Assembly: GCA_024275145.1 (NCBI GenBank) | Contig: JAJRZR010000067.1 | Coordinates: 1-64,000, forward strand | Direction of reading: 5' to 3' | From: Deltaproteobacteria bacterium | GTDB taxonomy: Bacteria > Desulfobacterota > Dissulfuribacteria > Dissulfuribacterales > QOAL01 | Length of the DNA stretch: 64,000 bases | Part shown: piece after piece, positions 13,322 to 62,107 of the stretch | Layout: each line of letters starts with the position of its first letter | Numbering within the stretch: position 1 is the stretch's first letter | Program-made: the position numbers and the translations under genes | The notes under the pieces: model-generated | What the model was told of the DNA's origin: nothing | The model's database searches: none | Seen by the model: only the letters and a program-made list of their open reading frames with translations

Positions 13322-13402
13322 CTAGGCCTCCACGCGGCCCGTATTTTAAATCTTAGGCCACAACCCAGGGCTTGAGAATACGGCCCGAGGAAGGATGTAC
13401 CT
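13322..13402 (-). repeat. Copy H of dispersed two-hairpin element
   Basis: Minus strand: GGTACATCCTTCCTCGGGCCGTATTCTCAAGCCCTGGGTTGTGGCCTAAGATTTAAAATACGGGCCGCGTGGAGG. Matches the second half of the core plus the GGGCCGC tail. Confidence 0.55.
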
Positions 13403-13412
13403 TTATAATAAA

Positions 13413-13488
13413 TTTTACCGGAGAATGTAGCCCAAAACGGGTTGCATTTTCATGCGTGGGATATGGCTCAGGATGTAGAGCCACATAG
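13413..13488 (+). repeat. Copy A of dispersed two-hairpin element
   Basis: TTTTACCGGAGAATGTAGCCCAAAACGGGTTGCATTTTCATGCGTGGGATATGGCTCAGGATGTAGAGCCACATAG. Hairpin 1 AATGTAGCCC/GGGTTGCATT; hairpin 2 TGGCTC/GAGCCA. Confidence 0.7.
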
Positions 13489-13635
13489 TTAAAAAATCTG
13501 TACTATTAAAAAATTTTTATAAAGTTTTAAATTTTTTTAACCAACATGCCCCCATACAGACCGTCAAACCCATTTGATGCAAGGTGGATAGTGGCAATAA
13601 AATCCAACAATCTGCAAAAGGTACAGATCGCTGCA

Positions 13636-13663
13636 ACAAAAAACCCGTAACACATGTTACGGG
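13636..13663 (-). terminator. Rho-independent terminator
   Basis: Minus strand CCCGTAAC-ATGT-GTTACGGG followed by TTTTTTG. Downstream of the small ORF 13778-14056. Confidence 0.7.
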
Positions 13664-13694
13664 CCAAGTGGGAGAAAAAAATATCTTTATAAAG

Positions 13695-13775
13695 TTACCG
13701 TGAAAACGCACCCTCCATAAGGGCTATATTTTCATGCCTGGGGTCCACCTCAACCTGTGCGGGAGGTATGAAAGA
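13695..13775 (+). repeat. Copy B of dispersed two-hairpin element
   Basis: TTACCGTGAAAACGCACCCTCCATAAGGGCTATATTTTCATGCCTGGGGTCC...GGGAGGTATGAAAG; TGAAAA/TTTTCA and CCCT/AGGG pair. Confidence 0.75.
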
Positions 13776-13777
13776 TT

Positions 13778-14056
13778 TTATAGGCTTCTTTCTTCTCTTT
13801 CGATCTCTTTCAGACACTTTTTATAATACTTCAGGCATTTTTTCAAAAAACGCCTCTGGCCTCTCCTGGTTGAAAGGTCCTCCCTCTTTACGGGTGCATC
13901 CCAGCAGGCCAGAACTATGAGCCTGACCGGCATATTCATATCCATCAGGCACCTGATTTTACTCTCATAATAATCCTTGTGTGCCTGACACTGAACCTTT
14001 CTGTTACTGGTTACATGGGACAATGGCAATCGTCTTGATCGGACTGAAGATATCAT
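13778..14056 (-). CDS. Small basic hypothetical protein (92 aa)
   Basis: ATG preceded by AAAGGTGAGAGAAA (RBS-like). A rho-independent terminator lies downstream on the same strand at 13636-13663. Confidence 0.45.
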   Translation of the reverse strand: MISSVRSRRLPLSHVTSNRKVQCQAHKDYYESKIRCLMDMNMPVRLIVLACWDAPVKREDLSTRRGQRRFLKKCLKYYKKCLKEIEREERSL

Positions 14057-14198
14057 TTTCTCTCACCTTTTTTCATTTTATCCAAGGATACGCTCAAGTT
14101 CCGGGCCATGTTGCCTAAACTTGGGAGTGTCTTCATGGTTAGAGCAAGGCAGACACAGGATTTAGATAAATTTTAAGCAAAATTCCTGCCACAAGACC

Positions 14199-15230
14199 AT
14201 GGCCCATGACCTTCCAGATAAGACGACTTGCATCCATCCCGCATGGCTTGCACACCCTCGTAGCCACGGGGCTCAACGCCTTAAGGATTTTCTCCAAGAT
14301 GCCGATAAGCTATCCATGGGAAGGGGACGGGCCATAAATACGGTGCGTACAAAATACAACCATACCTCTACGGTAGATCTATCCGCGGAACGGCGCCGCA
14401 GGGAGATCATAAAGCGGCTGGATACGATCCCGCCGCTCCCGGCCGCAGCCCATGAAGTCCTTTCAATAGTTGCGGGTGATCCGAAGGACACCGGAAGGCT
14501 TGAACAGACGATAAGGCATGATCCTGCCCTTTCATCACAGATCCTGCGCGTGGCCAATTGTGCCGCATATTATCCCCAGACACCCATAGACACAATCCAC
14601 CGGGCAGTGGTGTTCCTTGGATTTTCCGAGGTGAGGAATATCGCCCTGAGCCTAAGTATCTCCAGTGTGTTCAAGGAAAGACCTCGTTTATCCGGCTTTA
14701 GGACTCAAGATTTCTGGACCCATTCCATTGCAACCGCAATGATATCGCGGATACTGGCCATAGAGCTGGATAGAGAGGAACCTGAAATCTATTTCACTGC
14801 CGGTCTCCTTCACGACTTGGGACGGATAGCCATGTACACCTGCTTTCCTGATGAATGGGGATCTATCGTTGAATATGCACAGCAAAATAGATGCTCACTG
14901 CTCGCGGCAGAAAAAAGATTCGGCCTTCAACATAACCTGATAGGCGCATGGCTTGCCAGAAACTGGGAACTTCCCAAGATTTATCAAAAGACCATTGCCA
15001 CCCACCACCTGAGACTCTCACATCCCAAGATAGGCGAGCAGGGGCTATTGATCCAACTGGCGGACCAGATATGCCATCATGTGGGAATGGGACTGATGTC
15101 TCCTCCAGCGGTAAATCGAAGGGCGCTTGCCAATGCAGTGGGCCTGGGGCAGGATACGCTGGAAATACTCGAGAAACAACTGGATCAGATCGAGGAACTG
15201 GCCTCATCTATTATAGACATACTGCACTAA
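14199..15230 (+). CDS. HDOD-domain protein (start uncertain)
   Basis: RRREIIKRLDTIPPLPAAAHEVLSIV, HDPALSSQILRVANCA, TAGLLHDLGRIAM, ATHHLR, typical HDOD pattern. Confidence 0.85.
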   Translation: MAHDLPDKTTCIHPAWLAHPRSHGAQRLKDFLQDADKLSMGRGRAINTVRTKYNHTSTVDLSAERRRREIIKRLDTIPPLPAAAHEVLSIVAGDPKDTGRLEQTIRHDPALSSQILRVANCAAYYPQTPIDTIHRAVVFLGFSEVRNIALSLSISSVFKERPRLSGFRTQDFWTHSIATAMISRILAIELDREEPEIYFTAGLLHDLGRIAMYTCFPDEWGSIVEYAQQNRCSLLAAEKRFGLQHNLIGAWLARNWELPKIYQKTIATHHLRLSHPKIGEQGLLIQLADQICHHVGMGLMSPPAVNRRALANAVGLGQDTLEILEKQLDQIEELASSIIDILH

Positions 15231-15408
15231 GGGCAATCCACTAATGCGCATTCCTGGATCAAGCGTTTGCCCGTCTGCCGCCGCTGCCCCGGGTAGCCTG
15301 CGGCAAAACGGAATCAGTAAAACCGCAAATCCTTGCGGCTTCACCCCCCAAAGAGACGATTAGGAGGAAACAGTACCTACCAGAGGCCTTGTAACTGTGC
15401 ACGCATTG

Positions 15409-16584
15409 CTACAACATAAGGGCTGACAATGCGCCACCTACCAAAACCACCCAGAGGATATCCACCTTGAGACGGAGGGCGATGAAGGCACCAACACAAA
15501 GGACAGCGGCAACCCACGACCACTGGGCTGCCGCACCAAAACGTATGGTTACCGCAAGAAGAAGGCCTACGAAGGAGCTGAGTATCCCTCTCATTGCCAT
15601 CTTGAACCAGGAAGACCTCTTGAGCCGATCGAAATAGGGCACTACCAACAAAAGAACCAGGAAGGAAGGGGTAAAGATAGAAACCGCCCCTATGACCGCC
15701 CCTACGAAACCATACAACAAAAAACCCACAAAGGCAGCGGTAATAACTATGGGACCTGGAGTTACCTGTCCCAGGGCAATGCCATCCATCAATGACTTGG
15801 CATCCATGAGATGCCTCGCCTCCACGACCTCATGGAACATCAAGGGCAGGGAGGCATATCCACCACCGAAGGCGAAAAGATCGATCTTCAACATCATAAT
15901 CGCCAGATGAAAAAACGACCTGTTTATAAAAAAAAGCGCCGATACGCCCAACATCACTACAAAGGCGCACAGGAAGGCGAACCGCATCAGATCCTTAAGG
16001 CTATTGTTACCAGGATCATGGCTGGCATTATCCATGCCACCAGGATTGGCAAATTCCTGGCGGAACAAAACCAGACCTGCCAAGCCCGACGCTATGATGG
16101 CCAGAACAGGGCTTCCCCTTGCCACCAAAAACGAAGCGGATGCAACCACCAGGACCAGGTCCTTCCATGACAATATGGTCTTTTTACCAAAGCCAACAGT
16201 AGCATTTGCCACCATGGCGACAACGATAATCTGCAGCCCCCTGAACAGGGCCATGACATGGGGTAGGCCATGGGCCCTTTGGTAGGCCATGGACAAAAAA
16301 ACCATTAAAAAAAAGGCTGGCAGGCTGAATCCAACGTATGCCGCAAGTGCCCCCCTAGCCCCTCCAGCCCTGAGCCCTGCGTACGCCGCGGCCTGCATGG
16401 CCGTGGCACCTGGGATAGATTGAACCAGGGCCACACCTTCACGAAAAGACTCTTCCCTTACCCATCTGTATCTTTTTACCACCAGATCTCTTATATAGGC
16501 TACCATTGCAGGCCCACCAAACGCAGTGAGCCCCAGCCTTAGAAAGGCAAAGAAGATCTTCAGTGCAGGGATACGCTCTTCCAC
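15409..16584 (-). CDS. chrA: Chromate transporter ChrA family (long-chain, two-domain)
   Basis: FFAFLRLGLTAFGGPAMVAYIRD; QSIPGATAMQAAAYAGLRAGG; second repeat IDLFAFGGGYASLPLMFHEV...ALGQVTPGPIVITAAFVGF. Confidence 0.88.
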   Translation of the reverse strand: MEERIPALKIFFAFLRLGLTAFGGPAMVAYIRDLVVKRYRWVREESFREGVALVQSIPGATAMQAAAYAGLRAGGARGALAAYVGFSLPAFFLMVFLSMAYQRAHGLPHVMALFRGLQIIVVAMVANATVGFGKKTILSWKDLVLVVASASFLVARGSPVLAIIASGLAGLVLFRQEFANPGGMDNASHDPGNNSLKDLMRFAFLCAFVVMLGVSALFFINRSFFHLAIMMLKIDLFAFGGGYASLPLMFHEVVEARHLMDAKSLMDGIALGQVTPGPIVITAAFVGFLLYGFVGAVIGAVSIFTPSFLVLLLVVPYFDRLKRSSWFKMAMRGILSSFVGLLLAVTIRFGAAAQWSWVAAVLCVGAFIALRLKVDILWVVLVGGALSALML

Positions 16585-17495
16585 AGCTCCCTCACCTGCC
16601 TCACCATCTCGATATCCTTCTCTATCTCCCTTCCCCTGACGGTAAGATAGCCGCCTATGAGCATGGCATCTGCCCCTGCCCAGAAGGCCATGGCCTGGAA
16701 ATCCCCCAGCCTGCTCTCCCTGCCCCCTGCTATCCTGAGTGCCTTTTCAGGAAGTATCAGCCTGAAGATGGCAATAGTCCTCAAGATATCCGTCATTTTC
16801 AGTGGTGCAGCTCCTGCAAGAGGGGTCCCCTCTATGGGAACCAACAGATTAACAGGGACCGAATCCACATCCAGTTCGGCCAAGGTGCAAGCCATGGAAA
16901 TCCTGTCCTCCTCCGTTTCCCCAAGTCCTATGATACCACCGGAGCACACCTCAAGACCAACCTCCTTTGCTGCCCTTATCGTATCGATCCTTTCCTGGAA
17001 CGAATGGGTACTAACCACGTGGGGGAAAAAACGACTGGACGTCTCAAGGTTGTGATGATAACGACTCATACCGGCGTCCTTCAGACAGCTTAAAGACCTG
17101 CCGTCCAGTATCCCCAGGGAACAACACACCTTGATATCAACACGTGACCTTATTGCATGAATGGTCTCTGCTACATGCCTGACCTCGTCGCTGTTCATGC
17201 CACGGCCGCTGGTTACCAAGCTGAATCGCTCTGCCCCTGCGTTTCTAGCCCTTTCGGCCTCCCTGACCGCCTCATCGGAGGATCTGAGGGAATAGGCGGC
17301 TATGCTGGTATTGTAACGGGCAGACTGTGCGCAAAAGGCACAATCCTCGGTACAACGGCCTGAGCGTGCATTCATTATAGTACACAGGGAAAACCTGCTC
17401 CCCCTGTATTTGAGTTTTGTCTTAAGGGCCTTTTCCATCAACCAGGGAAGGGGCATGGAGGCCAGTTGGCTTATATCGTTGCCATTCATCTTCAT
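16560..17495 (-). CDS. bioB: Biotin synthase
   Basis: MNARSGRCTEDCAFCAQSARYNT radical SAM motif; HNLETSSRFFP; CSGGIIGLGETEEDR. Confidence 0.93.
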   Translation of the reverse strand: MKMNGNDISQLASMPLPWLMEKALKTKLKYRGSRFSLCTIMNARSGRCTEDCAFCAQSARYNTSIAAYSLRSSDEAVREAERARNAGAERFSLVTSGRGMNSDEVRHVAETIHAIRSRVDIKVCCSLGILDGRSLSCLKDAGMSRYHHNLETSSRFFPHVVSTHSFQERIDTIRAAKEVGLEVCSGGIIGLGETEEDRISMACTLAELDVDSVPVNLLVPIEGTPLAGAAPLKMTDILRTIAIFRLILPEKALRIAGGRESRLGDFQAMAFWAGADAMLIGGYLTVRGREIEKDIEMVRQVRELWKSVSLH

Positions 17496-17589
17496 AGTAT
17501 TTTCCGGATATCGATATTTTATAGATGTACGGAGTAGAAACTATTCCTGCGCATGCAACTCTTCAATCATCCAGGGAGACCAAGCGGAC

Positions 17590-18975
17590 CTAAAGCCCTA
17601 GGCCCTCAAAGGTGGCGTTGCACCGGGAAAGGATATCGTTTATCTGATCAACAGTAACACAAAGCGGAAGAAACAGGTAGATCACGTCCCCGAGGGGCCT
17701 TAGTATCAGGCCATGTTTCAGCCCCTCAAGATATACCTGAAACCCCCTTCTTTCCCTCGGTGGAAATGGTTTCTTACTGTCCTTATCCGCCACCAGTTCC
17801 AGGGATGCCACCATGCCTACGCCCCTTATATCACCCACGGTATCGAACCTTGCCAGGCCCCTGATTCCACTCTGGAGTACATCCACCTTTTGCGACAATT
17901 CCTCAAGGGTTTTTTCTTCTTCAAATACACGTAAGGAACCAAGGGCTGCTGCCACGGCCAACGGATTTGCCGTGAACGTATGGCCATGAAAAAAGGTCTT
18001 GCCCTCATTGTAGTCACCATAGAAGGCGCTAAAGACATCCTCGGTGGTCATCGTTGCCGACATGGGCAGATAACCGCCGGTAAGCCCCTTGGAGATGCAC
18101 AGGAAGTCCGGGCAGATCCCGGCGTGTTCGAGGGCAAACATCCTCCCGGTCCGACCGAAGCCAGTGGCCACCTCGTCAAGTATCAGGTGAACCCCGTAAC
18201 GTCTGCAAAGCCTTGCAACCTCCTGTAGGTATTCCACCGGATAAACGATCATCCCACCTGCCCCCATTAAAAGGGGTTCAAGGATCAGCGCGGCAATGTC
18301 CTCTGCCCTTCCCTCCAGAAGCCTTCTCAGGGGCTCCAGACACTCTATGGCGCATCCGGAGGCCCTTGGGGTACCGCAAGAATCACATGCAGGTGATGCC
18401 GTCTCGATCCCGCATGGGCAATGATAGCAATAGGGGGTGGGGATAGTAAAGGAATCGAATGTCAACCTGTCGAAGGGACCCTTGAAAGCCGGCACCCCAC
18501 CAAGGCTCATTGTACCGATGGTATCGCCGTGATAACCCCTTTCTAGTGCGATGAAACGATCCTTGCTCTTGTGACCGGTCTGTTTCCAGTATTGTACAGA
18601 CATCTTGATGGCCACCTCGCACGCTGTAGAACCGTCATCCGAGTAAAAGACCCTGGTCAATGGCTCTGGCGTAATGGAAGCCAACCTTTCCGCCAGACGG
18701 ATGGCCCCCTCATGCGTAGTCCCTGCAAAATGAATCTGTTCAAGCCTGTCCAGTTGCCCTTTGACATACGACTTTATGGTTGGATGGTTGTGGCCATGGA
18801 GGATACACCACCAGGAAGAAATGGTATCATAATACCGCTTTCCCTTGGCATCAAATAGATACACCCCATCGGCATGATCTACGAGCAGAAGATCCCTGTC
18901 CTCATAGTCCTTCATCTGGGTATAGGGATGCCACAAAAATTTCATATCCACGTCTAAAAGTCTTTCGGTTTCCAT
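17590..18975 (-). CDS. bioA: Adenosylmethionine-8-amino-7-oxononanoate aminotransferase
   Basis: WHPYTQMKDY; DTISSWWCILHGHNHP; DEVATGFGRTGRMFALEHAGICPDFLCISKGLTGGYLPMSATM. Confidence 0.92.
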   Translation of the reverse strand: METERLLDVDMKFLWHPYTQMKDYEDRDLLLVDHADGVYLFDAKGKRYYDTISSWWCILHGHNHPTIKSYVKGQLDRLEQIHFAGTTHEGAIRLAERLASITPEPLTRVFYSDDGSTACEVAIKMSVQYWKQTGHKSKDRFIALERGYHGDTIGTMSLGGVPAFKGPFDRLTFDSFTIPTPYCYHCPCGIETASPACDSCGTPRASGCAIECLEPLRRLLEGRAEDIAALILEPLLMGAGGMIVYPVEYLQEVARLCRRYGVHLILDEVATGFGRTGRMFALEHAGICPDFLCISKGLTGGYLPMSATMTTEDVFSAFYGDYNEGKTFFHGHTFTANPLAVAAALGSLRVFEEEKTLEELSQKVDVLQSGIRGLARFDTVGDIRGVGMVASLELVADKDSKKPFPPRERRGFQVYLEGLKHGLILRPLGDVIYLFLPLCVTVDQINDILSRCNATFEGLGL

Positions 18976-19104
18976 TTTTGTTGATATATCTCCTTATCTC
19001 CGCATCAAGATGAACGTCCCGCCCTTGAAAAACTTCCTTGGCAGCGTGCCCCCGGGTCTTGTGCCACCTGTGCAAGCGATCAGGGCAACTTAAAAACTTT
19101 TCCA

Positions 19105-22100
19105 TTACCCAGGCAAGATGGATCTCCCATCAAACACGAATGTATTTAGATCCGGGATCACCTGCCTGAAGATATCCACTGTTTCGGGATGACACGTAAA
19201 AAACAAAATCTGGTGCTGTCGCGCTACTTCCAGTATGGTCTCTGCCGTGCGCCTGGCCCTCGACGGATCGAAGTTTACCAGGATATCATCCATTATAATC
19301 GGAAGCCTTTCACCGTTTACGATATAGTTGGTCACGTATCCGAATCTCAATGACAGGTATAACTGTTCTGCCGTTCCCCTGCTAAGCTCCTGAGGCCTCT
19401 TACGCCTTGCATTTTCCGATACTACTTCAATGCTATCCCCACCGATAGGGGTCACTATTGTGACATATCTCCCCCCGGTGATTCTCCTGAAAAAACGACT
19501 GGCATCCCTGATAACCTTTGGCTGTTTATCCCTCTCTATTCGCCTTCTGGTCTGTACAATGAGCTCGAGAGCAATGGAATAGCGACACCAATCCCTGGCA
19601 AGCCGTCTTATCTCCTCTTTCAGAGATTCCATCGAGGAGCCCAGGATGGAAATTTCCCTGGAAGAGGCAAGCTCGTTCATGCGGGCCTTAAGATCCGCCC
19701 TTTCCTGAATCAATCGATCGAGATCACCTGTAATCTCATCAAGACCTCTTTCCACATCATCAAGCGCCTCTTCCACTTTCTGTCTGTTGAGCCCCTCTAG
19801 GGCCTTCGTAAATCCCTGGATATCACTATGACCAGTCACCCTAAGGATATTGACCTCAAGGGCCGACCTTTGTCTGTGTATCTCCCGAGCCTCGTTAAAG
19901 CGATGTGCAAGCTTCCTGAATTCTTCCTCGTCTTCAGCCCCTCCTGACAAAAAAAGCACTTCCATCTCCTTGTGCAGGGAGATCCTTTTTTCCTTGAGGT
20001 TTTCAAGTTCCTTTTCACATGCCTCGATCTGCTTGTTCAGGCTGAGCATCCTGGCTCGACCTACCTTGGCCTCTCCAAGTGCCTTGTCCATTTCCTCAAG
20101 GATGGCAGGGACACGATTTCTCCCGGGAAATCTCCTGCCGGTCCTCTCAATAAGCTCTCTGGCATCGTGCAAAAAGGCCATTATAAATTCTTCATCTCTG
20201 GAGATCCTTCGTTCCGTTTCATCGATCCTTTCCTGCTTGATCAGAACATCCTTGAAGATTCCCATGAGATCAAGCGCGGTATCAGGTAACAAGTCCTGTG
20301 ACAGGCCCTGCCCCTTGAGCCACTGCCTCCATCTCGAGATGGTTCGTGCTTCCCTGTCCCTTGCCCTTTTTAGACGAGCCCTCGCCTCCTGCACCCTGCT
20401 GAACAGGGCCTGGCGCCTCTGTCTCCTGGCAAGACATTCGGCCTCCAGTTCCTGTCTTTCAAGGATTTCTGACCTGAGCAGGCTTGCCCCTTCAAGAAGT
20501 TGCCTAACCTTTTCGGGTAATCTTTCCAGGTTACTATCAACGGAGAATGATTGCGCAAAGACCGCGTTTATCAACCCGATATGCTCGCGCAACCCATCCA
20601 TAAGGGACAAAAGGTCCCTTTTGAGTTCATCCCTTTGCCTCAACAGTTCCCGGGCCGACTCCACCCTTGAGAATATGGCCTCCATGGCCCCTGGGGCAAG
20701 GCCTTCCATCAGCCCGGCCTTGCGCAGCCAGACGTTCCAGCGTTCCTCTACGCGGGCAAGGGCCTTTCTTGCCCCTTCCCTCTTGTTACGAATAGCAACG
20801 ATCCTTTGCTCAAACATGTCGTGCTCCCGCTCATGGTCCAAAAGCACCTCTTCCTTGGATTTGATTCTGCCAGCAAGCTCTTGGGCACTTGACACCCGCA
20901 CCTCTAGTCCTGCTATTCCCTCAGGGGTCAAGGGAAGTGCCGCTTCGATCCTGGTCGCCAGGTCCACGATGGCACCTTCAACGCGGTCCCTCTGCCCCTG
21001 GTTTTTCTTGATCTCCTCCTGTAAGGAGGATATCTCTGTCCTTATCTCCTCCATGGAACCTCTGACCTCATGGGCCTTTTCCAACTCCCTTTTGCCGATA
21101 TGGAAAAAGCCCCACGCCACAAGGGCCGCCACCAGCCCTGAAAACGCCTCCGTCCTCAGATCGGGCAGGAAACAGATGGCAGCAACGGCCAGCAAAAACA
21201 AAAACATGGAGGTCAACCCACCCCATTTAAAAAATGGCGCCAGATTCCGTGCAAGGACCATTGAAAGTGCATCCGCCTCCCTTTGCCTGCCCATAATTCT
21301 ATCTTCAAGGAACGCCCTTTCCCTTGAAAGGCCGGAAAGCTCTTCGTTGAGGGCCTTGAGCCTGGAAACCGTCTCCTTGAATTCTTCGACCGATCTGCAT
21401 TTCCCAGGAAGGCCTATCCTGGCTTCCAATAAAGCAATTTCCTCTTTTAGGGTCCCTATGGCAGTCTTGATCCTATCATCCGTGGTCACCGCATCATCAA
21501 GCTCACGGGTGAGGGCGGTCAATGCCTCCCTTTTTTCATCGAGTTCACGGGAAAATCTATCGGCTACCTGCCTTGCCGAAAGGGAACTATCGAATGATCT
21601 CAGGGAATTTTCGTCCCAGTCTTCGTTAATTTCCCTCAAGGACTCAAGAAGCCTCGACTGGACGTCATCCAGTATCTTTCGCCTCTCGGGAATCTTTCTG
21701 ACCAGGAACTCCAGGTGCTCTCTGCCGGCCTCGACTTGATCAATACGGGTGAGATCCCATTGCGAATCCACAGGAGACGATCGGACAAGCCTTGCCAGGA
21801 TCTCTTTTTCTTCGACACGGGCCTGCTTGTACATGGCACGCATCTCATCCAGCCGATTCCCGGAATTGGACACGGCCAACCTCTCATCATCCAGACGTCT
21901 TTTCATCTGCATGATGGTATCACGTGTAAGTATCGACCGGTCCAGGCGGCTTACCCTTTCTACGGTCCAATCAGGACCGATCATGTGAAGAAGCGCCTTC
22001 ATTTCACCCTTCAGGCCATGGAGTTTGCTCTTCAATTCAGGAAGCTCCCCTTCTACCTGCCTGAATTCTGCAAGACGGTAGATCAACGCCTTTAAGGGCG

Positions 22101-23058
22101 ATTCCAACCCGATGAGATCCTGATCTATGACTATGTTTTCAACCTCCCCCTTCAAGGCCTCCAGATTGAGCAAGAGCCTTGCCTCCTGGTCCTTGACCCC
22201 CGAAAGTCTCTGTTCGAGCACCTCGAGCCTGTGGATCGCATCTTCAGGGAACTCCTTTGGAACCGGGGCCATCTCCTTGAGCCTTGCCTCCAGACCTCTT
22301 ATTTTCTTGAAATCCTCCCATATCTCCATGTATGAACGGAACGTTGCCCGCTTGGTCCTTAGCAAGTCCTGCCTTTTTTTGAAGTCCCTGATCTTTCGAT
22401 CCAGTTCCTGCTGTTTCGAAAAGAGCCTTTCAAATAGATCGAATGCATCCCTTGCCGTTTTGAGTTTTTTCCTGAGGGATTCAAACTCGGAAAGTTTACG
22501 GTTCAAGGCGGCCACCCTTCCCCTTGGCCTGAATATGCCTTGGCGGGAACCGACAAGATCCTTCTCCACCCTTGGAAGCCTCATGAGTGATGCCCCTAGG
22601 CTGGCCCCATAAATGGCCCCCTTGACCGCATCGTTGTTCAGGCTTTCAAAGCCTTGAAGCTCACTGAGGCTGAAGGCAAATATACTCCTGAAAAGCTCCT
22701 TCGATGTACTACCTAGAAGTGACTGTAGCTCGACCGCCCCACCCCTTCTCCCATCAGGAAGGTAAACGGTTATCCGCCCTCCCCTGGGGCCCTTCTTGCG
22801 TTCGATTTCGACGGTCCCTAGACCTTCGAACCTGAGGGTAAGGCGTCCGCCAGGATTACCCCCTGCCAGTGGTGGATAGGACAGTTCCTTGGTTCGCTGA
22901 TCAGGGAACCCAAACAACATCTGGATGATAAAGGCCACCAGGGTTGACTTTCCTGCCTCGTTATGCCCCAAAAAGACCGTCAGTCCTCCAGGAAGCTGTC
23001 CTATCTTGAGGTCGTGAAAAAGGCCAAAACCATCTATGTGAAGGCCTGAAATCCTCAT
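19105..23058 (-). CDS. AAA ATPase, SbcC/YhaN-like, long coiled coils
   Basis: N-terminal MRISGLHIDGFGLFHDLKIGQLPGGLTVFLGHNEAGKSTLVAFI; C-terminal LSRGTAEQLYLSLRFGYV...LPIIMDDILVNFDPSRA. Confidence 0.88.
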   Translation of the reverse strand: MRISGLHIDGFGLFHDLKIGQLPGGLTVFLGHNEAGKSTLVAFIIQMLFGFPDQRTKELSYPPLAGGNPGGRLTLRFEGLGTVEIERKKGPRGGRITVYLPDGRRGGAVELQSLLGSTSKELFRSIFAFSLSELQGFESLNNDAVKGAIYGASLGASLMRLPRVEKDLVGSRQGIFRPRGRVAALNRKLSEFESLRKKLKTARDAFDLFERLFSKQQELDRKIRDFKKRQDLLRTKRATFRSYMEIWEDFKKIRGLEARLKEMAPVPKEFPEDAIHRLEVLEQRLSGVKDQEARLLLNLEALKGEVENIVIDQDLIGLESPLKALIYRLAEFRQVEGELPELKSKLHGLKGEMKALLHMIGPDWTVERVSRLDRSILTRDTIMQMKRRLDDERLAVSNSGNRLDEMRAMYKQARVEEKEILARLVRSSPVDSQWDLTRIDQVEAGREHLEFLVRKIPERRKILDDVQSRLLESLREINEDWDENSLRSFDSSLSARQVADRFSRELDEKREALTALTRELDDAVTTDDRIKTAIGTLKEEIALLEARIGLPGKCRSVEEFKETVSRLKALNEELSGLSRERAFLEDRIMGRQREADALSMVLARNLAPFFKWGGLTSMFLFLLAVAAICFLPDLRTEAFSGLVAALVAWGFFHIGKRELEKAHEVRGSMEEIRTEISSLQEEIKKNQGQRDRVEGAIVDLATRIEAALPLTPEGIAGLEVRVSSAQELAGRIKSKEEVLLDHEREHDMFEQRIVAIRNKREGARKALARVEERWNVWLRKAGLMEGLAPGAMEAIFSRVESARELLRQRDELKRDLLSLMDGLREHIGLINAVFAQSFSVDSNLERLPEKVRQLLEGASLLRSEILERQELEAECLARRQRRQALFSRVQEARARLKRARDREARTISRWRQWLKGQGLSQDLLPDTALDLMGIFKDVLIKQERIDETERRISRDEEFIMAFLHDARELIERTGRRFPGRNRVPAILEEMDKALGEAKVGRARMLSLNKQIEACEKELENLKEKRISLHKEMEVLFLSGGAEDEEEFRKLAHRFNEAREIHRQRSALEVNILRVTGHSDIQGFTKALEGLNRQKVEEALDDVERGLDEITGDLDRLIQERADLKARMNELASSREISILGSSMESLKEEIRRLARDWCRYSIALELIVQTRRRIERDKQPKVIRDASRFFRRITGGRYVTIVTPIGGDSIEVVSENARRKRPQELSRGTAEQLYLSLRFGYVTNYIVNGERLPIIMDDILVNFDPSRARRTAETILEVARQHQILFFTCHPETVDIFRQVIPDLNTFVFDGRSILPG

Positions 23059-23144
23059 CTTCTACTGCGCGTTTTTTTTGATTGAAATCATGATTGGACC
23101 GAATAATCGTGTCGAAGAGGATGTAGTTGACATATATAGCCGAT

Positions 23145-26709: not shown

Positions 26710-26777
26710 ACCTATAGCTTACTATTGCAAGTTTCGATCACTGCCCTTGCCCACTATAGCCACCTTTTCTTGTTGTC

Positions 26778-29880: not shown

Positions 29881-30118
29881 AATACCTCTCCTTAGTTGGT
29901 TGTGCCCGCCCTCTGGCAACATATGGGCTAGGCTCGACAATAAAATGATCTTCTTATAGAAGATGGTTATTCGTCCCAGGCAGGTCAAGAAACCCTGGAG
30001 TTTCATGACACATATAGGCAATTACGCGGCAGACCATAATTCGCAGGCCTGCACGGCATACCTTGACATACTGAACCTGCTGCAAGTAGACTTTTTTACA
30101 AGGGTATATAATTAAAAC

Positions 30119-30180
30119 CTTCATGCGGCCCATACCGTTGGGGCCGCATCCCAAGGGCAGGGTATATTTTCACGGTAAAT
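30119..30180 (-). repeat. Copy C2 of dispersed two-hairpin element
   Basis: Minus strand TTTACCGTGAAAATATACCCTGCCCTTGGGATGCGGCCCCAACGGTATGGGCCGCATGAAGG; perfect ATGCGGCCC/GGGCCGCAT stem. Confidence 0.75.
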
Positions 30181-41217: not shown

Positions 41218-41233
41218 TCGAAAAAACGGACCA

Positions 41234-41303
41234 GATTTTCATGACAAATGTACACCTACACCGACATGAAGCACAGCCCTGATGAAGGACGTTTTCGCAC
41301 TAT
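41234..41303 (-). repeat. Copy L (diverged) of dispersed two-hairpin element
   Basis: Minus strand ATAGTGCGAAAACGTCCTTCATCAGGGCTGTGCTTCATGTCGGTGTAGGTGTACATTTGTCATGAAAATC, aligns to copies B and C1. Confidence 0.5.
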
Positions 41304-41312
41304 GGATCCAAA

Positions 41313-46501: not shown

Positions 46502-46503
46502 GG

Positions 46504-50599: not shown

Positions 50600-50605
50600 C
50601 TTTGA

Positions 50606-52650: not shown

Positions 52651-52713
52651 TCAACGACACCTGTACCCAATATTTCCAGTATTGGTTATGGTTCCAACCC
52701 TTTGGAAGATTGT

Positions 52714-53190: not shown

Positions 53191-53251
53191 CTTTCTCCCC
53201 CTTTGTTAGGTCTATCGTGTATGCACCTGCCCTTATCTCCCTTTTTGTATC

Positions 53252-53334
53252 TAAGTCTTCATACGGCCCGTACGACGCCACAGCCTCAGGCATAAAAACA
53301 CGGCTCAGGGACAAGGGTGTATTTTCACGGTCAA
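53252..53334 (-). repeat. Copy D of dispersed two-hairpin element, about 60 nt upstream of uspA-like gene
   Basis: Minus strand TTGACCGTGAAAATACACCCTTGTCCCTGAGCCGTGTTTTTATGCCTGAGGCTGTGGCGTCGTACGGGCCGTATGAAGACTTAG. Confidence 0.75.
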
Positions 53335-53520
53335 TTAAACCTTCATATTCAGCCCCTACCACGCCTGCCACCATGAATTCTGCAACATATGTAACAGGCA
53401 AGGTGTCTGATCGAGGATACGAAAAAACGACCACGTTATGATCCAGAAGTCTGACCACTGCCGGCATTCTTGTCAACAAGAGGTAGTTCCAACAAATAAA
53501 ACCTGCGACCTTAAACCTGA

Positions 53521-53760
53521 ATTATGCACTTCAAATGTTGAATAAATAGAATCGCGTTAAAATTACAAGATGTTATAAGCAAACAGCATCCTCTTCGGTT
53601 CATCCAAAAGGTGCATCAACTTCTCAACGAAATCATCCAACATTTGAAGCCGCAAGGGATTGGCAATTTTGCCGAATTTGCTGCGTTGTAGAGCAATCGA
53701 AGTACACAAGCACGTCTGCATGTCCTTCCGCCTTGCATCTTCGGCAAAATTGCCAGCTGC
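53521..53760. mobile_element. Candidate non-autonomous element/remnant with nested inverted repeats
   Basis: CTTCAAATGTTG (53529-53540) / CAACATTTGAAG (53638-53649) and GGCAATTTTGCCGAA (53662-53676) / TTCGGCAAAATTGCC (53740-53754); no ORF. Confidence 0.4.
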
Positions 53761-53807
53761 ATGATCCTGGTTAAAATCAACAAAAAGGCTTTGAACCCGG
53801 CGCGTGG

Positions 53808-53834
53808 AAAAATAAAAGGCCCTTTTCAGGGCCT
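53808..53834 (-). terminator. Rho-independent terminator after the histidine kinase gene
   Basis: Minus strand AGGCCCT-GAAA-AGGGCCT followed by TTTTATTTTT. Confidence 0.8.
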
Positions 53835-53856
53835 GGGTGCACTACGCATGATTGCA

Positions 53857-55372
53857 TCAACTTACGGACTCTAAAGACCTGTCCGTTACATCTACGACAT
53901 CATCGACATCCCCTGCATCCTGATCGGGGCCTGGCAGGCTGCCGCTTTTGGAGAAGGTAACCGTAAAAACGGCGAAATCACCATCCTGGCTGAAGGAAAG
54001 AAGCCCGCCCATGTTTTTGACCAATCTGAAGGAAAGGGGCAGGCCTATGCTTTGGCCTCCCTCGCCAAAGGGCAAGAATAGTTTTTCCGCCTTCTTGACC
54101 TTCCTTTTTTCCATACGGTTTTTAAATTCTATGCAGATGTTGCCATTGGTTTCGTAGGACCTTATATGCAGGGTACCACCTTCGTTAAGGGAGAATATGG
54201 CATTTCGTATGAGGTTGATGAAGACCTCGGTAAGCAGATCCGAATCCAATTCGATCCTTTTCATCCCCCTGTTGAGGTCTACATCCAACTTGATATGATG
54301 TTTTTCGATTTCAGGGGATAACAGGACCAGGCTCCGTTTCAGGATGGAATTGAGGGAGAAGGTCTTTTTCCTGGGGATGGACGGGCGCAAGTAGTTGTTA
54401 ATCCTCTGAACGAGCCTTTCCAGGCGCCCTGACTCGGTCAAGATTATGTCAAGTTCCTGGCAGGCCGGGAGCCTCTTTTTCAGCCGGTTGGCAAACCCCC
54501 CCTATGGATATCAACGGATTCCTGATTTCATGCGCCACCTCAGCTGAAATGGTTCCCAAGGTCTTCAGCCTTTCGTTCTGGATGGCGGATTTTTCAAGCA
54601 AGACCCTGTCGGTTATGTCTACTGCCAGACCCTCGATGGACCGTTTTGCAGAATCAGGGAACCGGCTCTCGGTTATAGTCTTCAGCAGGGTATGGACGAT
54701 GAACCCCTTTTTGTGGATGAGCCTGCATTCGGTAGAGAAGGGAACCGGAGTAGTGGATAACATCGCCCTTTTTATGAGCCTCTTTATCCTACGCCTGTCT
54801 TCAGGATAGACCAGGGATAAAAAACCATGATCGAGGCCCTTTGCCTCATCGGGCGCATAACCAAGCATCCCCTGTGAAGCCTGATTGATAAATTCTAGCC
54901 TGCAATTTTTGCCAATCGAAAAGATCAAAACAGGCAGATTTTCGACCAAGAGTTCGTACCGGCTATCCGCCTCCCTGGCCCGTTCCTTGAGCGCCCTACG
55001 TTCCTCGAACCTCCTGAGGCAAAGCTTGAATTCATCCATTGAAAAGGGCTTTCTAAGATAGTCATATGCACCGATCTTCAAGGCCTGTACGGCATTTTCA
55101 AAGGTCCCGTATCCGGTGATAAAGGCTATCTCGAGCCTTGGCAGTTCACTCTTCAGGCGTTTGCCGAGTTCTATACCATCTATCTAAGGCAGGTGGATAT
55201 CCACAAAGGCGAGATCAAATTCCTGATCATGGACGACCCTGAGGGCCTCCCTTGGATGGTGACATACGACGGGTTTGTAGGATTCTTGTTTCAGTACCTG
55301 TGACAGGGTATCGCAAAGCGATATGTCATCATCAACAATCAATATATAGCCGGCGTGTTTGGTAAAGAACAA
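53857..55372 (-). pseudogene. Response regulator-PAS-histidine kinase, broken by in-frame TAG (55184-55186) and a +1 frameshift at a 7-G/C tract (54496-54502)
   Basis: ORFs 55184-55372 (ILIVDDD...LAFVDIHLP*), 54449-55081 (IDGIELGKRL... PAS, AEVAHEIRNPLISIGG) and 53857-54441 (HATPase core) join into one protein when both lesions are corrected. Confidence 0.8.
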
Positions 55373-55604
55373 ATCTCAAATCCTTCATGCTCGGTATCTT
55401 CAGGCGTTGATCAGGGAAACAAACTGCCATGGAAGTACTGGGCGCACCTTGTCGGCCAAACAGATGAACAGGAACCTAACTATTCGAAATAAAAGCCTCT
55501 CTTCCCGAAACGACCCATCTCCTTAATGGCAAGATGTTAATTATACTTATAACAAATAGTTACTCAACGACCGAAGTCAAGTGATTAAAGTTATAGGTGA
55601 ATAA

Positions 55605-55684
55605 TTTACCGTAAAAAAAGCACGCCCTAGTCCTGGGTCGTATTTTCATGCCCTGTTAACATGGCATGGATTGACGCATGAAGG
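55605..55684 (+). repeat. Copy F of dispersed two-hairpin element
   Basis: TTTACCGTAAAAAAAGCACGCCCTAGTCCTGGGTCGTATTTTCATGCCCTGTTAACATGGCATGGATTGACGCATGAAGG. Confidence 0.7.
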
Positions 55685-56035
55685 ATTACCATATAAAATG
55701 GCTTACCTCTGGGCTATTCCAGGCCCTTTCCAAGGTTCCTCCCCAGGGCTTGCGGGGTTGATCCCTCTGCTCAATCCGCTGCGTTGCAGTCGGCTGACCT
55801 GGTAGTAGCACTGCTTACACACCATCTCGTTGTCCCTTGATCATAGCTTGTCCTTCCATGGCCTAAATTATATTCCTGGACTTGTTCGCTCCAGGGGGGT
55901 TTAATTAATTTTTAGAACTAGGTAAACTTCCCATGATTCCTTTCCGGTCTGATCCAGGGGAATTCGGAACGTTTCTACAAAACAGCCCTTTGATCATGTA
56001 TTTTCAATTGACAAATTACGAAACAGGATGGATTC

Positions 56036-58243
56036 ATGAATGACAATGTCACCGACAACCTAGATCCTGAGTTTAGGAAGATTATAGAGGCACGGCATCA
56101 CGATCCGTTCAGTGTACTCGGCAGGCATCAGGTGGGAGAGAATGTAGAGATCCGGGCGTTCATCCCCACGGCGCAAGAGGTCATGATCGTCTCAGGCGGA
56201 CATAAAATGGAACGTATCCCTGGAACGGATTTTTTCGTTTGGCAGGGTAAACCGGAAGGGATTCCCTACCATTACAGATTCATATGGCGTGACGAACAAA
56301 ATCGTGAACATATGGCCAGGGATCCCTACACCTTTAAGCCACAGCTTTCGGACTTCGATCTCTATCTATTCGGCCAGGGCAAGCACTGGAATGCCTACCG
56401 GTTCCTTGGCTCCCATTGCCATGAAGTGGATGGTATCGCCGGGGTCCTCTTCAGTGTATGGGCGCCCAATGCCGAAAGGGTAAGCGTGGTAGGGGACTTC
56501 AACAACTGGGACGGGCGACGTCATCCCATGAGACACCGCGGTACAACCGGGGTATGGGAGTTGTTCATACCCGATCTTGGGCCTGAAACCCTTTACAAAT
56601 TTGAGATAAGAAACCGGGAGACGGGTCAGGTATTCCTGAAATCCGACCCCTATGCCCAAAGATATGAGCTTCGTCCCAAGACCGCATCGATTGTATGGGC
56701 AGAAGGAACCTACCAATGGCAGGACGATGAATGGATGGAGGCCAGGAAGGACTTTGACTGGCAACACAACCCCATTTCCATATATGAGGTCCACCTGGGT
56801 TCATGGAGAAGGGGCCCCGAGGGTGAATTCCTGGGTTACAGGGAACTGGCAGAGCAGCTCGTCCCATATGTCAAAAAGATGGGATTCACCCACGTGGAGC
56901 TTCTACCCGTAACGGAGCACCCATACGATCCATCCTGGGGATACCAGTCCACTGGCTATTTTGCCCCTACCAGCCGCTACGGTACCCCGGATGACTTCAG
57001 ATACTTCGTTGACCAATGCCACAGAAACGGCATAGGGGTATTCCTTGACTGGGTTCCTGCCCACTTTCCAAAGGATGCCCATGGGCTCGCCAGGTTCGAT
57101 GGAACCGCCCTTTATGAGTACGCAGATCCTAGGCTGGGGGAACACCAGGACTGGTCTACCCTGGTATATAATTTCGGAAGAAACGAAGTGAGGGCCTTTC
57201 TCCTTTCAAGCGCCATGTTCTGGCTGGAGGAATGTCATGTGGACGGTCTCAGGGTCGATGCAGTGGCATCGATGCTCTACCTGGATTATTCAAGGACTGA
57301 ATGGATTCCCAATAAATACGGTGGAAGGGAAAATCTGGAGGCCATAGATTTTCTTCGTCAGCTAAACATAGCAGTCCATGAGGCACAACCAGGCATATTG
57401 ATGATGGCAGAAGAATCCACATCCTGGCCACAGGTGAGTCGGCCGGTTTATCTTGGCGGGCTTGGCTTTGACATGAAATGGAACATGGGATGGATGAATG
57501 ACGTACTGAGCTACATGTCACATGATCCTATCTACAGGAAGTACCATCACAATATGCTTACGTTCAGCATGTTGTACGCCTTCACGGAGAACTTCCTACT
57601 TCCCCTCTCCCATGACGAGGTAGTACATGGCAAGGGTTCCCTTTTAAACAAGATGCCCGGTGATGAATGGCAGAAATTTGCCAATCTCAGGCTGCTCTTC
57701 TCGTATATGTACTGTCATCCAGGCAAAAAGCTTCTGTTTATGGGAGACGAATTCGGCCAAGGCAGGGAATGGGACAGTTCCCAGACCCTAGACTGGTATG
57801 TGTTACAGTACCCGTTCCATAAAGGCATCAATTGTCTGATAGGGGACCTCAATCGGCTGTACCAGCGCCTTGAGGCGCTCCACCGTTATGATTTCGAATG
57901 GAAGGGATTTGAATGGATCGATTGCCACGATGCAGAACAATCCGTGCTCAGTTTCGTGAGGAAATCCGACAACAGGCTCGTGGTAGTGGCTACAAACTTC
58001 ACACCTGTTCCCAGAAAGGGCTACAGGATAGGGGTACCTGAGGCAGGATCCTATTCTGAAATATTCAACTCCGACCTACAGATTTACGGAGGCAGTGGCA
58101 TGGGCAACCAGGATATGAGGATCGAGGCCGAGGCGCTACCCTGGATGGGGCGGCCATTCTCCCTTTCCGTTACCCTGCCTCCACTGGCCACGATCGTCCT
58201 GGAACCCGAAACGTTCAAGGCCACCCCGGATAATGTGGATTGA
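56036..58243 (+). CDS. glgB: 1,4-alpha-glucan branching enzyme
   Basis: [71 protein letters not shown]. Confidence 0.95.
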
Positions 58244-58277
58244 TGACTGACGCATATGGCTGTGGTCTTGACATAGC

Positions 58278-58805
58278 ATGATGTCCCCAAGATATCGTTA
58301 TATCCGGCTGGGTAGGGCTGTCTCATCCCTCTTGCCGGTCATGATACTCGCCGAGGCTGCCGTCTTTCCCGGAAGCGCCTTTGCCATCCAGGCCCACGGC
58401 GCATCGGAAGGGATCTTCGTGCACCTTGGAGGCCATGTATTGTTTGGACTTGCAATGGCCGGACTTGGTTATCGTATCCATGCAACAAGACTCCATGAAA
58501 TAAGGGCATGGAGACAGATGGCCTGTGGTGCATGGCTGCTCACTGCCTGGAACATATGGGCCATAGCGGGACATATCGTCTCGCTTTATATCCCAGCCAG
58601 CCATTTCATACGCCTTGGAGGCAATATGGCACCTGACTTCCTGGTCGTCTCATGGCTGGACGTAGCCTATTACGTGTTGCGGATGGACCACATCCTGTGT
58701 GTTCCTGCCCTGTTCTGTTTTTATCTTGGGCTGAAAGACCTATTGAAAATCTTTCCTGGAACAGGCATTGTCAACCATGACCACCATACCTATCCACAGG
58801 GTTGA
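58278..58805 (+). CDS. Hypothetical multi-TM membrane protein (about 175 aa), paired with downstream kinase
   Basis: Hydrophobic segments; HLGGHVLFGLAMAGLGYRIH...HIVSLYIPASHFIRLGG...; same strand, just upstream of the kinase. Confidence 0.6.
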   Translation: MMSPRYRYIRLGRAVSSLLPVMILAEAAVFPGSAFAIQAHGASEGIFVHLGGHVLFGLAMAGLGYRIHATRLHEIRAWRQMACGAWLLTAWNIWAIAGHIVSLYIPASHFIRLGGNMAPDFLVVSWLDVAYYVLRMDHILCVPALFCFYLGLKDLLKIFPGTGIVNHDHHTYPQG

Positions 58806-58860
58806 GGATATGCCGGGGCCATTATCCTCAAGTATTCAGCCGGTCGGACCTGCAATAAGG

Positions 58861-58950
58861 TTGCCGTGAAAACACATCCTGCCACCGGACCGTGTTTTTT
58901 TCTGCCTCGGAACGCGGCATCAAGGGTACGGGCCGCATCAAGTCTTAGGT
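58861..58950 (+). repeat. Copy E of dispersed two-hairpin element in kinase leader
   Basis: TTGCCGTGAAAACACATCCTGCCACCGGACCGTGTTTTTTTCTGCCTCGGAACGCGGCATCAAGGGTACGGGCCGCATCAAGTCTTAGG. Confidence 0.65.
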
Positions 58951-58964
58951 TGATTCGACAGACG

Positions 58965-60053
58965 ATGTTGTTGCCGCTCCTCCCGATATGGATAATAGAT
59001 CTCTTGGGCGCCACGGCCATGATTGTCCTTTCGATAATGTGCCTGAGGATTGTACTTAGGATATACACACGCGATCCGGAAGATGCACTTGCATCCTATC
59101 TGCTTTGGTTCTTCCTGGGAATCCTGGCCTTTTCATTCTCAAGGCCCCTTGGTCACATACTGAAGTATTTCCTGTTTTTCACCGGGCATCAGGACGTGTG
59201 GATAAGGATTTCGCCGATAAGTGGTTCAGTAAACACCATGGTATTCATCATGATCGCAGCCACTACCATGTTCTTCCACCGCATCCAAAAGACCATGTCA
59301 CAGATGGCACGAGACAGGCAGCGCATAGAGAATACCAGCAGGGAGTTGTTGAAATTGAACGAGGATCTTGAGGACATCGTATCCCAAAGAACCATGGCCG
59401 AGATGGCGCTCCGGGTAGCGCACGAGATCAGGAACCCGGTAATGATAATCGGCGGCCTTATACGCCACATACTGAAGGAAGGACCTTGCTCCAGGAACAA
59501 GGATCCAAGGCTTCAGAAGATAATGGACCAGGCACAGAAGCTAGAATCCCTTGTCAGCAGGTTCGAAGATGTAAGGCCTGTATACAAACGTTTTGCCCCA
59601 CAGGACCTTAATATCCTTGTCAAAGACTCGGTGGACGCGGTCAGGATAGAGGCAGAAAACAAAAACATCCGGCTTAGGTTTAGACGTTTTAAAAGCCCCC
59701 TGATCTTTCAGGGCAACGGCCGCCTGATCAAGATCGCCGTCATCCACCTGTTGAGGAATGCAGTAGATGCATGTAAAAGGGGATGCGAGATCAATGTGAC
59801 CACCGGACTGGCCCAAAAAGGCATCTTACTTAAGATAGAAGACAATGGTCCCGGTATCCCGGAGGACGTGCTAAAACATATATTTGAGGCCTTTGTTCGG
59901 ACTGAACAAGGAGAAACGGGGCTGGGGATCCCTTACGTGCGCCAAATAATAGAAGAACACCGTGGAAAGATCTCAATCAAGAGTGAAAAGGACAAGGGTA
60001 CCATCGTGGAAATCCTGCTTCCCACCCATGTGGGTGCACTCCATTCCAGCTGA
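58965..60053 (+). CDS. Membrane-bound sensor histidine kinase (start probably MLLPLLPIWIIDLLG)
   Basis: N-terminal TM region, H-box ALRVAHEIRNPVMIIGG, HATPase NAVDACKRG...KIEDNGPGIPEDVLKHIFEAFVRTEQGETGLGIPYVRQI. Confidence 0.88.
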   Translation: MLLPLLPIWIIDLLGATAMIVLSIMCLRIVLRIYTRDPEDALASYLLWFFLGILAFSFSRPLGHILKYFLFFTGHQDVWIRISPISGSVNTMVFIMIAATTMFFHRIQKTMSQMARDRQRIENTSRELLKLNEDLEDIVSQRTMAEMALRVAHEIRNPVMIIGGLIRHILKEGPCSRNKDPRLQKIMDQAQKLESLVSRFEDVRPVYKRFAPQDLNILVKDSVDAVRIEAENKNIRLRFRRFKSPLIFQGNGRLIKIAVIHLLRNAVDACKRGCEINVTTGLAQKGILLKIEDNGPGIPEDVLKHIFEAFVRTEQGETGLGIPYVRQIIEEHRGKISIKSEKDKGTIVEILLPTHVGALHSS

Positions 60054-60085
60054 CCAACCATTGAAGGTACGACATCCGTGCCTGG

Positions 60086-60829
60086 TCATTCCCCACTCCA
60101 TCTATCCTCTATCCATCTCGTCAACAATTCTATGTCCTTGATTATCAATTTACCCCGTTTCATGCCTAACAAACCCTGCCTCTTCAGATTCTGCATCTGC
60201 CTGTTCACTACCACCCGCACCGTCCCTATGAGGCCAGCTATTTCCCGGTGGGGCAGGTCATGTATGAGCCGAAGCCCACCCTCCGAGGAACTGTCGGCAT
60301 GTTTGAGGATCAACTTGGCCAGCCTAGTGCCCGTATCGCAAAGGGATAAATCGGTGGCAAGTTCCTCAAGTTCCCTCAATAGATGGCCAAGATAGGGGAA
60401 AAAGGCGTTGTTGATGGCTGGAATCTCCCTTACCCATTTCCTTGCAAGTTCCATTGGAACGGAGGCACATTCCACCTCCCTGTCAAGGCACCTGTAGAGC
60501 ACCTCGTGGCGTTGGCCATCGAGCAGGGTTATCACATCAAAGGCGTCCCCTTGCCGCAAGAGAAACAAGGTGATCTCCTTGCCCACCACGGGATTCTGTT
60601 CATAGACCTTTAGCCTGCCAGATACGATCATGTAAAAATGGCCCATTGTATCCAGCCTGGTAAGCGGATGATCATCCTCCCGGCTGAACCTCTCCAATTT
60701 CATGGAGGAGAGCAGGGAACGAAACTCTTTCTTGCGGAGTTTCGTAAACAATGGTGAGCGCTTGAGGGATTCCAAAGACGGATCGTACCCGGCTGTGTTT
60801 GAACCAGTCCTGTGGATCTTCAATGTCAT
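60086..60829 (-). CDS. Crp/Fnr family transcriptional regulator
   Basis: cNMP-binding-like N-terminus and HTH DLPHREIAGLIGTVRVVVNRQMQNLKRQGLL. Confidence 0.85.
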   Translation of the reverse strand: MTLKIHRTGSNTAGYDPSLESLKRSPLFTKLRKKEFRSLLSSMKLERFSREDDHPLTRLDTMGHFYMIVSGRLKVYEQNPVVGKEITLFLLRQGDAFDVITLLDGQRHEVLYRCLDREVECASVPMELARKWVREIPAINNAFFPYLGHLLRELEELATDLSLCDTGTRLAKLILKHADSSSEGGLRLIHDLPHREIAGLIGTVRVVVNRQMQNLKRQGLLGMKRGKLIIKDIELLTRWIEDRWSGE

Positions 60830-62013
60830 ATCCTTACCAGCGGCCAGTCGTTTCTACGGCCGAGTGAATAAAGCAACTGGAAAACGTGCAATGGATTGTG
60901 CCTGAACGACATCTGGGTACCATACAGATAGAGCCTCCACATCCTTACGAACTCATCCCCCATCATATCCCTTATCTTGCTGGCGCTTGCCTCAAATCTC
61001 CTGGCCCATTCGCCCAAGGTACGGTCATAATGCTGCCTGAGATCCTCCAGGTCAGCGAAGTCAAAACCGCATTTTTCAGCGGTATCAAAAATTTCACCAA
61101 GCGCCGGCACATAGGTGCCTGGGAAGATATATTTCGAGATCCATGGATCCATGGCCTCTGGCCGTAGTCTTCCTATGGTATGCAGAAGCAGTATGCCCTT
61201 TGGCCTCAGTAACCGACCCACCTTTTTAAAAAACACCGGGATGTTTTCCTTCCCCACGTGTTCGAACATCCCTATGGAGACTACCCTGTCATAGGTCCTG
61301 TCCTCCCTCTCTGGAAGCTCCCTGTAATCCTCTAGCCGTATCTCGGCCATGTCAGAAAGCCCGGCGTCCTTTATACGTCTATTCCCAAGCTCAAACTGCC
61401 TCTCCGAAAGGGTCAACCCCACGGCCTTGACGCCGTAATTCCTTACCGCCTCTATCAACAAGGTTCCCCATCCACACCCTATGTCTAACATTCGCTGGCC
61501 CTTCTTGAGCCTCATTTTCCTGAGCGTGTGCCCTATCTTTTGCAGTTGTGCCTTCTCCAGGGTATCGTCCTGATCTTCGAAATAGGCACAGGAATAGACC
61601 ATACCTTTATCCAGCCACAGCTTGTAAAAGTCGTTACCCCGGTCATAGTGTGCCTGGACATCCTTCCTGGTCTGTTTTATCGTGGCCTTTTTCTTAAAAT
61701 TTATCCAACACAACCTGGCCTTTTGACCTACCGACAGCCTCGACTGGAGATCGGTTTTATAGGCCCATTCAAGTAATCGGGAAATATCCCCTTCTATCTC
61801 TATATCGCCCCTGGTATATGCCTCACCAAATCCCAGAGACATATCAGTGAGAAGTGTCTCAAAGGATTCGGGGGTCTTGAATTTCAATTTGAATGCGGGC
61901 TCTGAACCGCCAAAGGAAAGTTCCGTACCATCCCAAAATTTAATAGTGCAGGGATAGCGTTCCTCGCCATTAAACAGGGAGGCTACCAGTGTCTTGGCCT
62001 GATTGACATCCAT
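60826..62013 (-). CDS. Cyclopropane-fatty-acyl-phospholipid synthase family (SAM-dependent)
   Basis: VQAHYDRGNDFYKLWLDKGMVYSCAYF; LDIGCGWGTLLIEAVRNYGVKAVGLTLSE; start MDVNQAKT at 62013 with GGAGGAAG RBS. Confidence 0.9.
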   Translation of the reverse strand: MDVNQAKTLVASLFNGEERYPCTIKFWDGTELSFGGSEPAFKLKFKTPESFETLLTDMSLGFGEAYTRGDIEIEGDISRLLEWAYKTDLQSRLSVGQKARLCWINFKKKATIKQTRKDVQAHYDRGNDFYKLWLDKGMVYSCAYFEDQDDTLEKAQLQKIGHTLRKMRLKKGQRMLDIGCGWGTLLIEAVRNYGVKAVGLTLSERQFELGNRRIKDAGLSDMAEIRLEDYRELPEREDRTYDRVVSIGMFEHVGKENIPVFFKKVGRLLRPKGILLLHTIGRLRPEAMDPWISKYIFPGTYVPALGEIFDTAEKCGFDFADLEDLRQHYDRTLGEWARRFEASASKIRDMMGDEFVRMWRLYLYGTQMSFRHNPLHVFQLLYSLGRRNDWPLVRI

Positions 62014-62029
62014 GTCTTCCTCCAAAAAC

Positions 62030-62107
62030 TCCCAGCGGCTGCGTATCCGAAGCCGCTCTCCAGGCACAAAAATACGGCCCGGAGCCAGAATATATTGCAC
62101 GGTAAAG
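62030..62107 (-). repeat. Copy G of dispersed two-hairpin element in CFA synthase leader
   Basis: Minus strand TTTACCGTGCAATATATTCTGGCTCCGGGCCGTATTTTTGTGCCTGGAGAGCGGCTTCGGATACGCAGCCGCTGG; AGCGGCT/AGCCGCT stem. Confidence 0.7.

Follow-up and report, generated by a model that had tools for sequence, protein, structure and literature searches.

Intergenic repeats of about 86 nucleotides are copies of a gene-less mobile DNA element

The repeats of about 86 nt between the genes of the analyzed stretch of DNA (the “window,” 64,000 nucleotides) are copies of a gene-less mobile DNA element, and as a family they are not RNA switches of the adjoining genes. With a probability of roughly 75%, they represent a non-autonomous transposable element of ~86 bp that is moved as single-stranded DNA by a transposase of the HUH (Y1) type acting in trans. 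The element has been amplified, has exact ends, and was inserted in a lineage-specific manner 3' of T(T)TA without duplication of the target; it is intergenic, randomly oriented to genes, and carries hairpins that were kept across genera despite a changed sequence. The family is real and abundant and was active recently; it belongs to an already known kind of miniature element, in a new host group. This explains conspicuous structured intergenic repeats without a match in Rfam, which would otherwise be regarded as riboswitch candidates.

Copies, ends, and insertion sites

An nhmmer profile made from the copies of the preliminary description yielded exactly 11 matches in the window, with E values of 1e-10 to 1e-21, the next match being at 0.07. 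The conserved core and every copy reported there are consequently real, albeit with C2 as a shortened copy and with the list covering only a minor fraction of the several hundred copies present. The copies are given below with their nhmmer or covariance model (CM) scores and, where it could be compared, the situation in G001, a second genome of the same genus.

13322..13413, minus strand: copy H, head-to-head with copy A; nhmmer 37 bits; CM 59.7 bits, E 6e-13
13412..13500, plus strand: copy A, diverged, with a perfect 13-bp hairpin 1 and a 6-bp hairpin 2; CM 33.7 bits
13693..13779, plus strand: copy B; CM 64.6 bits
30181..30254, minus strand: copy C1, diverged, with C2 directly after it; nhmmer 45.6 bits; syntenic interval of G001 without element
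30113..30180, minus strand: copy C2, shortened, without the middle segment; CM 48.2 bits
33657..33736, minus strand: copy J; the corresponding G001 interval contains an equally oriented element, with a second, younger one beside it
41231..41307, minus strand: copy L; absent in G001, where the flanks are joined with ~2 nt between them
53251..53335, minus strand: copy D, near consensus; CM 78.6 bits; absent in G001
55604..55689, plus strand: copy F; CM 48.7 bits; absent in G001
58859..58948, plus strand: copy E, upstream of a same-strand gene at a distance of 17 nt; CM 78.3 bits; G001 copy at the same place
62023..62107, minus strand: copy G, immediately 5' of the ribosome-binding site of the gene at 60826; CM 54.1 bits; also present in G001

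Copies D, F, L, and C1/C2 thus have no equivalent in G001, and E, G, and J have counterparts. The window is contig 54 of its genome, G000 (2.65 Mb, 120 contigs). Copy D alone as a BLAST query found copies on many contigs of G000, independent ones at 5e-9, and covariance model R1 gave at least 150 matches genome-wide. Genomes were sampled as 20-kb stretches, and for G000, with 464 kb covered, nhmmer yielded 80 copies; extrapolation from this sample leads to ~380 to 460 copies in the genome, an approximate value because the sampled contigs were chosen among those with matches. With ~70 intergenic copies per ~170 intergenic regions of at least 100 bp in the sample, the element accounts for a large share of the intergenic DNA of this genus.

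Among 40 relatives, only G001 (the metagenome-assembled genome “Deltaproteobacteria bacterium isolate S143_34,” WFZW01) is also rich in the element, and copies are few in other genera of the same family and order. A search for the core pattern over ~85,000 species genomes, with the window's own genome left out, had the G001 assembly as its sole match, and searches of IMG/VR and of plasmids gave no match to the element. G005 and G027 contain relatives of 120 to 140 nt that share the element's ends and have a longer tip of hairpin 1.

The layout of the element is CCGTGAAAATA-(hairpin 1)-~10 nt-(hairpin 2)-TGAAGGTTTA. Its outer ends, with a slash marking the border, are TTTA/CCGTGAAAATA on the left and CATGRAAGTTTA/ on the right, and the consensus of G000, read by eye, is TTTA CCGTGAAAATACATCCTGCCCYTGGGCCGTGTTTTCATGCCCTGGGGTGCGGCRTCAAGGGTACGGGCCGCATGAAGGTTTA(G). 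Terminal inverted repeats are absent, as seen from a comparison of the consensus ends CCGTGAAAATA and ATGAAGGTTTA, and a length of ~86 bp is too short for a transposase. A young subfamily in G001, with 119 left and 110 right ends at a tolerance of 3 mismatches, many of them identical, defines these borders: conservation begins sharply at TTTA/CCGTG and stops at GTTTA, with G preferred as the next base. Left or right ends that at first appeared isolated in G001 were shown to belong to truncated or diverged copies.

Exact junctions could not be read from most alignments of orthologous intergenic regions owing to their divergence. Where a filled and an empty site could be compared, the site was continuous again once CCGTG...GTTTA had been removed, without gaps in the case of L139 versus L036 of G000 (TTTTA/GAGAATAAC versus TTTCA/GAGAATAAC), and likewise for L130 versus its paralogue L153, with CTTA at the border and TTTA as the element's own end. 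Young copies also adjoined older ones precisely at the TTTA on the left or right side of these (L120, L126, L129, and L143), accompanied by two further tandem insertions (L190 and L193), and one copy (L147) resides on the opposite strand inside the apical hairpin loop of an older one. From these nested and orthologous sites, it can be concluded that the element inserts immediately 3' of T(T)TA. The tetranucleotide to the left differed from TTTA in 16 of 74 young copies, and in none of these 16 did the same tetranucleotide appear on the right, which indicates that the left TTTA is the target and the right one belongs to the element. A duplication of a TTTA target, which had also been considered, is ruled out by this mismatch.

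Hairpins and position relative to genes

Palindromes are present near both ends of the element, hairpin 1 being the weaker one, and the G001 consensus forms two hairpins with DNA folding parameters. Because RNAalifold found no pairs in a MAFFT alignment of the copies, the covariance model was based on a structure drawn by hand. The arms of hairpin 2 fit their own partner better than those of swapped copies, with z-scores of −6.1 in G001 and −2.5 in G000, and the effect was weaker for hairpin 1 (−1.9 and −0.5, respectively). Pair counts gave 81 doubly changed cells compared to 49 in shuffles, in an alignment fitted to the structure, and covariation counts exceeded those of shuffles in four of five measures, the model-fitted alignment again leaning toward the structure. 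Copies from G013, G004, G002, and G008 and copy A of the window possess both hairpins, with arms that are different yet matching. Many old copies no longer fold cleanly. The originally described layout of two hairpins with maintained pairing is therefore supported by several copies, by hairpin 2, and by the covariation, but hairpin 1 is weak within a genome. One copy of G001 (L110, C232:33464-33550) combines a young right half with a left half of another sequence and a near-perfect hairpin 1, which suggests a product of recombination between subfamilies.

The repeats had been suggested to be a family of cis-acting RNA leaders, which as riboswitch-like elements or attenuators would control the genes downstream. 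Two hairpins with some covariation would agree with this, as would the situation in the window, where most copies precede a same-strand gene and E and G are positioned directly before start codons. The apparent orientation of the window copies, however, arises largely from six of them (A, B, H, C1, C2, and F) between divergent genes, where any orientation fits. When the strand was scored between co-directional genes in sampled sequence with simple gene calls, 25 of 52 copies in G000 and 31 of 57 in G001 were on the same strand as the genes, and 23 of 45 tandem cases remained same-strand after subtraction of the window, all of which is random. The preference for the downstream gene is consequently visible in the window, mainly via the copies between divergent genes, and disappears in the larger samples. 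Within the sample, 95% of the copies were intergenic compared to 15% of the sequence.

The age and conservation of the copies also speak against a leader function. Insertion was recent, massive, and lineage specific, and copies are absent at orthologous sites. Where both genomes have a copy at the orthologous site, the two are 49 to 67% alike, compared to 53% (standard deviation of 10) for random pairs and ~83% for genes; being hardly more alike than random pairs, they show no sign of retention for a function after insertion. The RNA fold z-scores of the copies are weak (mean of −1.0 in G000). No Rfam family scored above its gathering threshold, and copy D had nothing at an E value below 1, in agreement with the earlier description, in which the element was not recognized as a known riboswitch. 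Control of the downstream genes by a leader RNA is hardly credible after these results, and the riboregulator idea, being largely refuted, should be dropped for the family as a whole. Single copies, such as G in the 5' untranslated region (UTR) in both species, could nevertheless have local effects. Consequences for the host of copies that settle in a 5' UTR, for instance G or E, would be incidental.

Mobilization of the element and rival explanations

The hairpins lie close to ends that are not inverted repeats, and the element inserts 3' of a fixed tetranucleotide without duplicating it; these features together point to single-strand transposition of the IS200/IS605 type. The folded hairpins would be recognized by a HUH (Y1-type) transposase supplied in trans, which may cut the left flank after TTTA and the right end after GTTTA. 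The element, transferred as single-stranded DNA, would then be joined 3' of a new TTTA, leaving the target without a duplication.

IS200/IS605 elements insert 3' of a tetra- or pentanucleotide without duplication (PMC7290912), and the “PATEs” (palindrome-associated transposable elements) of Haloquadratum walsbyi are gene-less IS200/IS605-type forms, some but not all of which have ends related to those of a tnpA-bearing IS200/IS605 element (PMC3119063). The 86-bp element appears to be closest to this PATE or IS200/IS605-type class. It resembles PATEs in the lack of terminal inverted repeats and target duplication, in the palindromes near the ends, in being too short for a transposase, in the high copy number and insertion into one another, and in that an intact transposase is not always present. 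In contrast to PATEs, it has a bacterial host, consists mostly of hairpin, uses TTTA as its one fixed target, and is without an IS605-type parent of matching ends among the sequences found. With IS608 and ISDra2, the element shares the insertion 3' of a short fixed sequence, the hairpins at both ends, and the absence of a duplication, but it contains neither tnpA nor tnpB and lacks a recognizable guide ahead of hairpin 1. Each hairpin of IS608 is preceded on its 5' side by a guide tetranucleotide. No clear guide is visible in the 86-bp element because hairpin 1 begins very close to the left end; the conserved GAAAA is part of the hairpin 1 stem, and no room is left of hairpin 1 for a guide tetranucleotide. 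If moved as proposed, the element would be a recently active bacterial example of gene-less HUH-type mobility.

Evaluation of this assignment needs to consider the enzyme. An autonomous copy with these ends was found neither among the assembled young ends of G001 nor in G000, and the only Y1 proteins of both genomes, whose sequences show HUH and Tyr motifs, are of the RAYT type and flanked by another motif, GGGGACAGGCAAAT. G005 contains related elements and gave no Y1 match. The weakly supported pairing of hairpin 1 within G000 and the old copies that fold uncleanly also count against the assignment. The transposase may possibly have been lost from the draft assemblies, as a multicopy insertion sequence, or recently from the genome. 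Haloquadratum has strain-specific IS605-type insertions although its IS200-type transposases are disrupted (PMC3119063). An IS200 tnpA gene beside an element in G027 (L082) was rejected as the autonomous partner since a comparison of its two copies revealed other ends. A search for IS91-type proteins (PF04986) gave no match, and neither did its controls. With ends, target, and young copies mapped, the mobilizing enzyme is directly testable.

An alternative to a PATE-like element would be a classical REP or REPIN family mobilized by a resident RAYT (TnpA-REP) transposase. Such families (PMC2817692, PMC3116915, PMC8266576) are likewise high-copy, intergenic, hairpin-forming DNA with presumed mobilization by an HUH Y1 enzyme; RAYT-type Y1 genes exist in G000 and G001, and the one in G001 has element copies on both sides. 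REPs are defined by a GTAG or CGTC tag beside a palindrome of 20 to 40 bp (PMC3733652), but no such tag accompanies the palindromes of the consensus, which has two unlike hairpins, defined ends, and a cut site of TTTA rather than CT. Copies flanking a RAYT gene were seen only in G001, and none adjoined the RAYT genes scanned in G000. The RAYT genes of this order carry their own motif (GGGGACAGGCAAAT; GGGACAGG) in all 12 loci examined, and the distributions do not match: G003, G022, G026, and G030 possess a RAYT without the element, and G005 and G027 have the element without this RAYT. The RAYT of G001 was rejected as the driver on the basis of its own GGGGACAGGC ends and of this mismatch. The earlier “REP-like” label was right with respect to mobility, but structure, target, and the lack of consistent RAYT linkage separate the element from true REPs, and a REP/RAYT system is improbable. 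Even less probable is a MITE derived from a DDE transposon or a cassette mobilized by a serine or tyrosine recombinase. A short, gene-less, high-copy repeat with TTTA at both ends would fit such an origin, but the element is without terminal inverted repeats and target duplication, and its targets are short and scattered, unlike a defined att site. A full element with these ends, of whatever kind, was not encountered in G001.

It is conceivable, though on balance unlikely, that the PATE-like element represents a minimal single-strand transposon lineage, composed essentially of two hairpins and TTTA ends, whose mover is not a recognizable Y1 transposase of the host. Such a lineage would persist across several genera of one order and have reached several hundred copies in one genus by repeatedly inserting into its own ends.

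Some observations concern the RAYT loci and other repeats. In 8 genera (L169 to L180), GGGGACAGGCAAATTAT motifs are located beside each RAYT gene, in many cases arranged as an inverted pair, and are otherwise rare in the genome samples. Beside the RAYT gene of G001, a copy of the element resides in the loop of a GGGGACAGGC palindrome (L074, 13443-13567). A second dispersed repeat of ~200 to 250 bp, which contains an internal inverted repeat (GCAATTTTGCCGAA...TTCGGCAAAATTGCC), is present at 53521-53776 of the window, at ~12 other places in the 464 kb of G000, and in G001 (L063, 13562-13767), the copies being 74 to 88% alike. A third repeat (TCCGAAAATGCATTTTTTGATTAGCCATGGACACACAAGGACATACATGGACAAA...) is often positioned directly 5' of the 86-bp element, as in G001 (L064, 4128; L067, 179; L068, 8788; L070, 17042; L072, 3923) and G027 (L082, ~1247).
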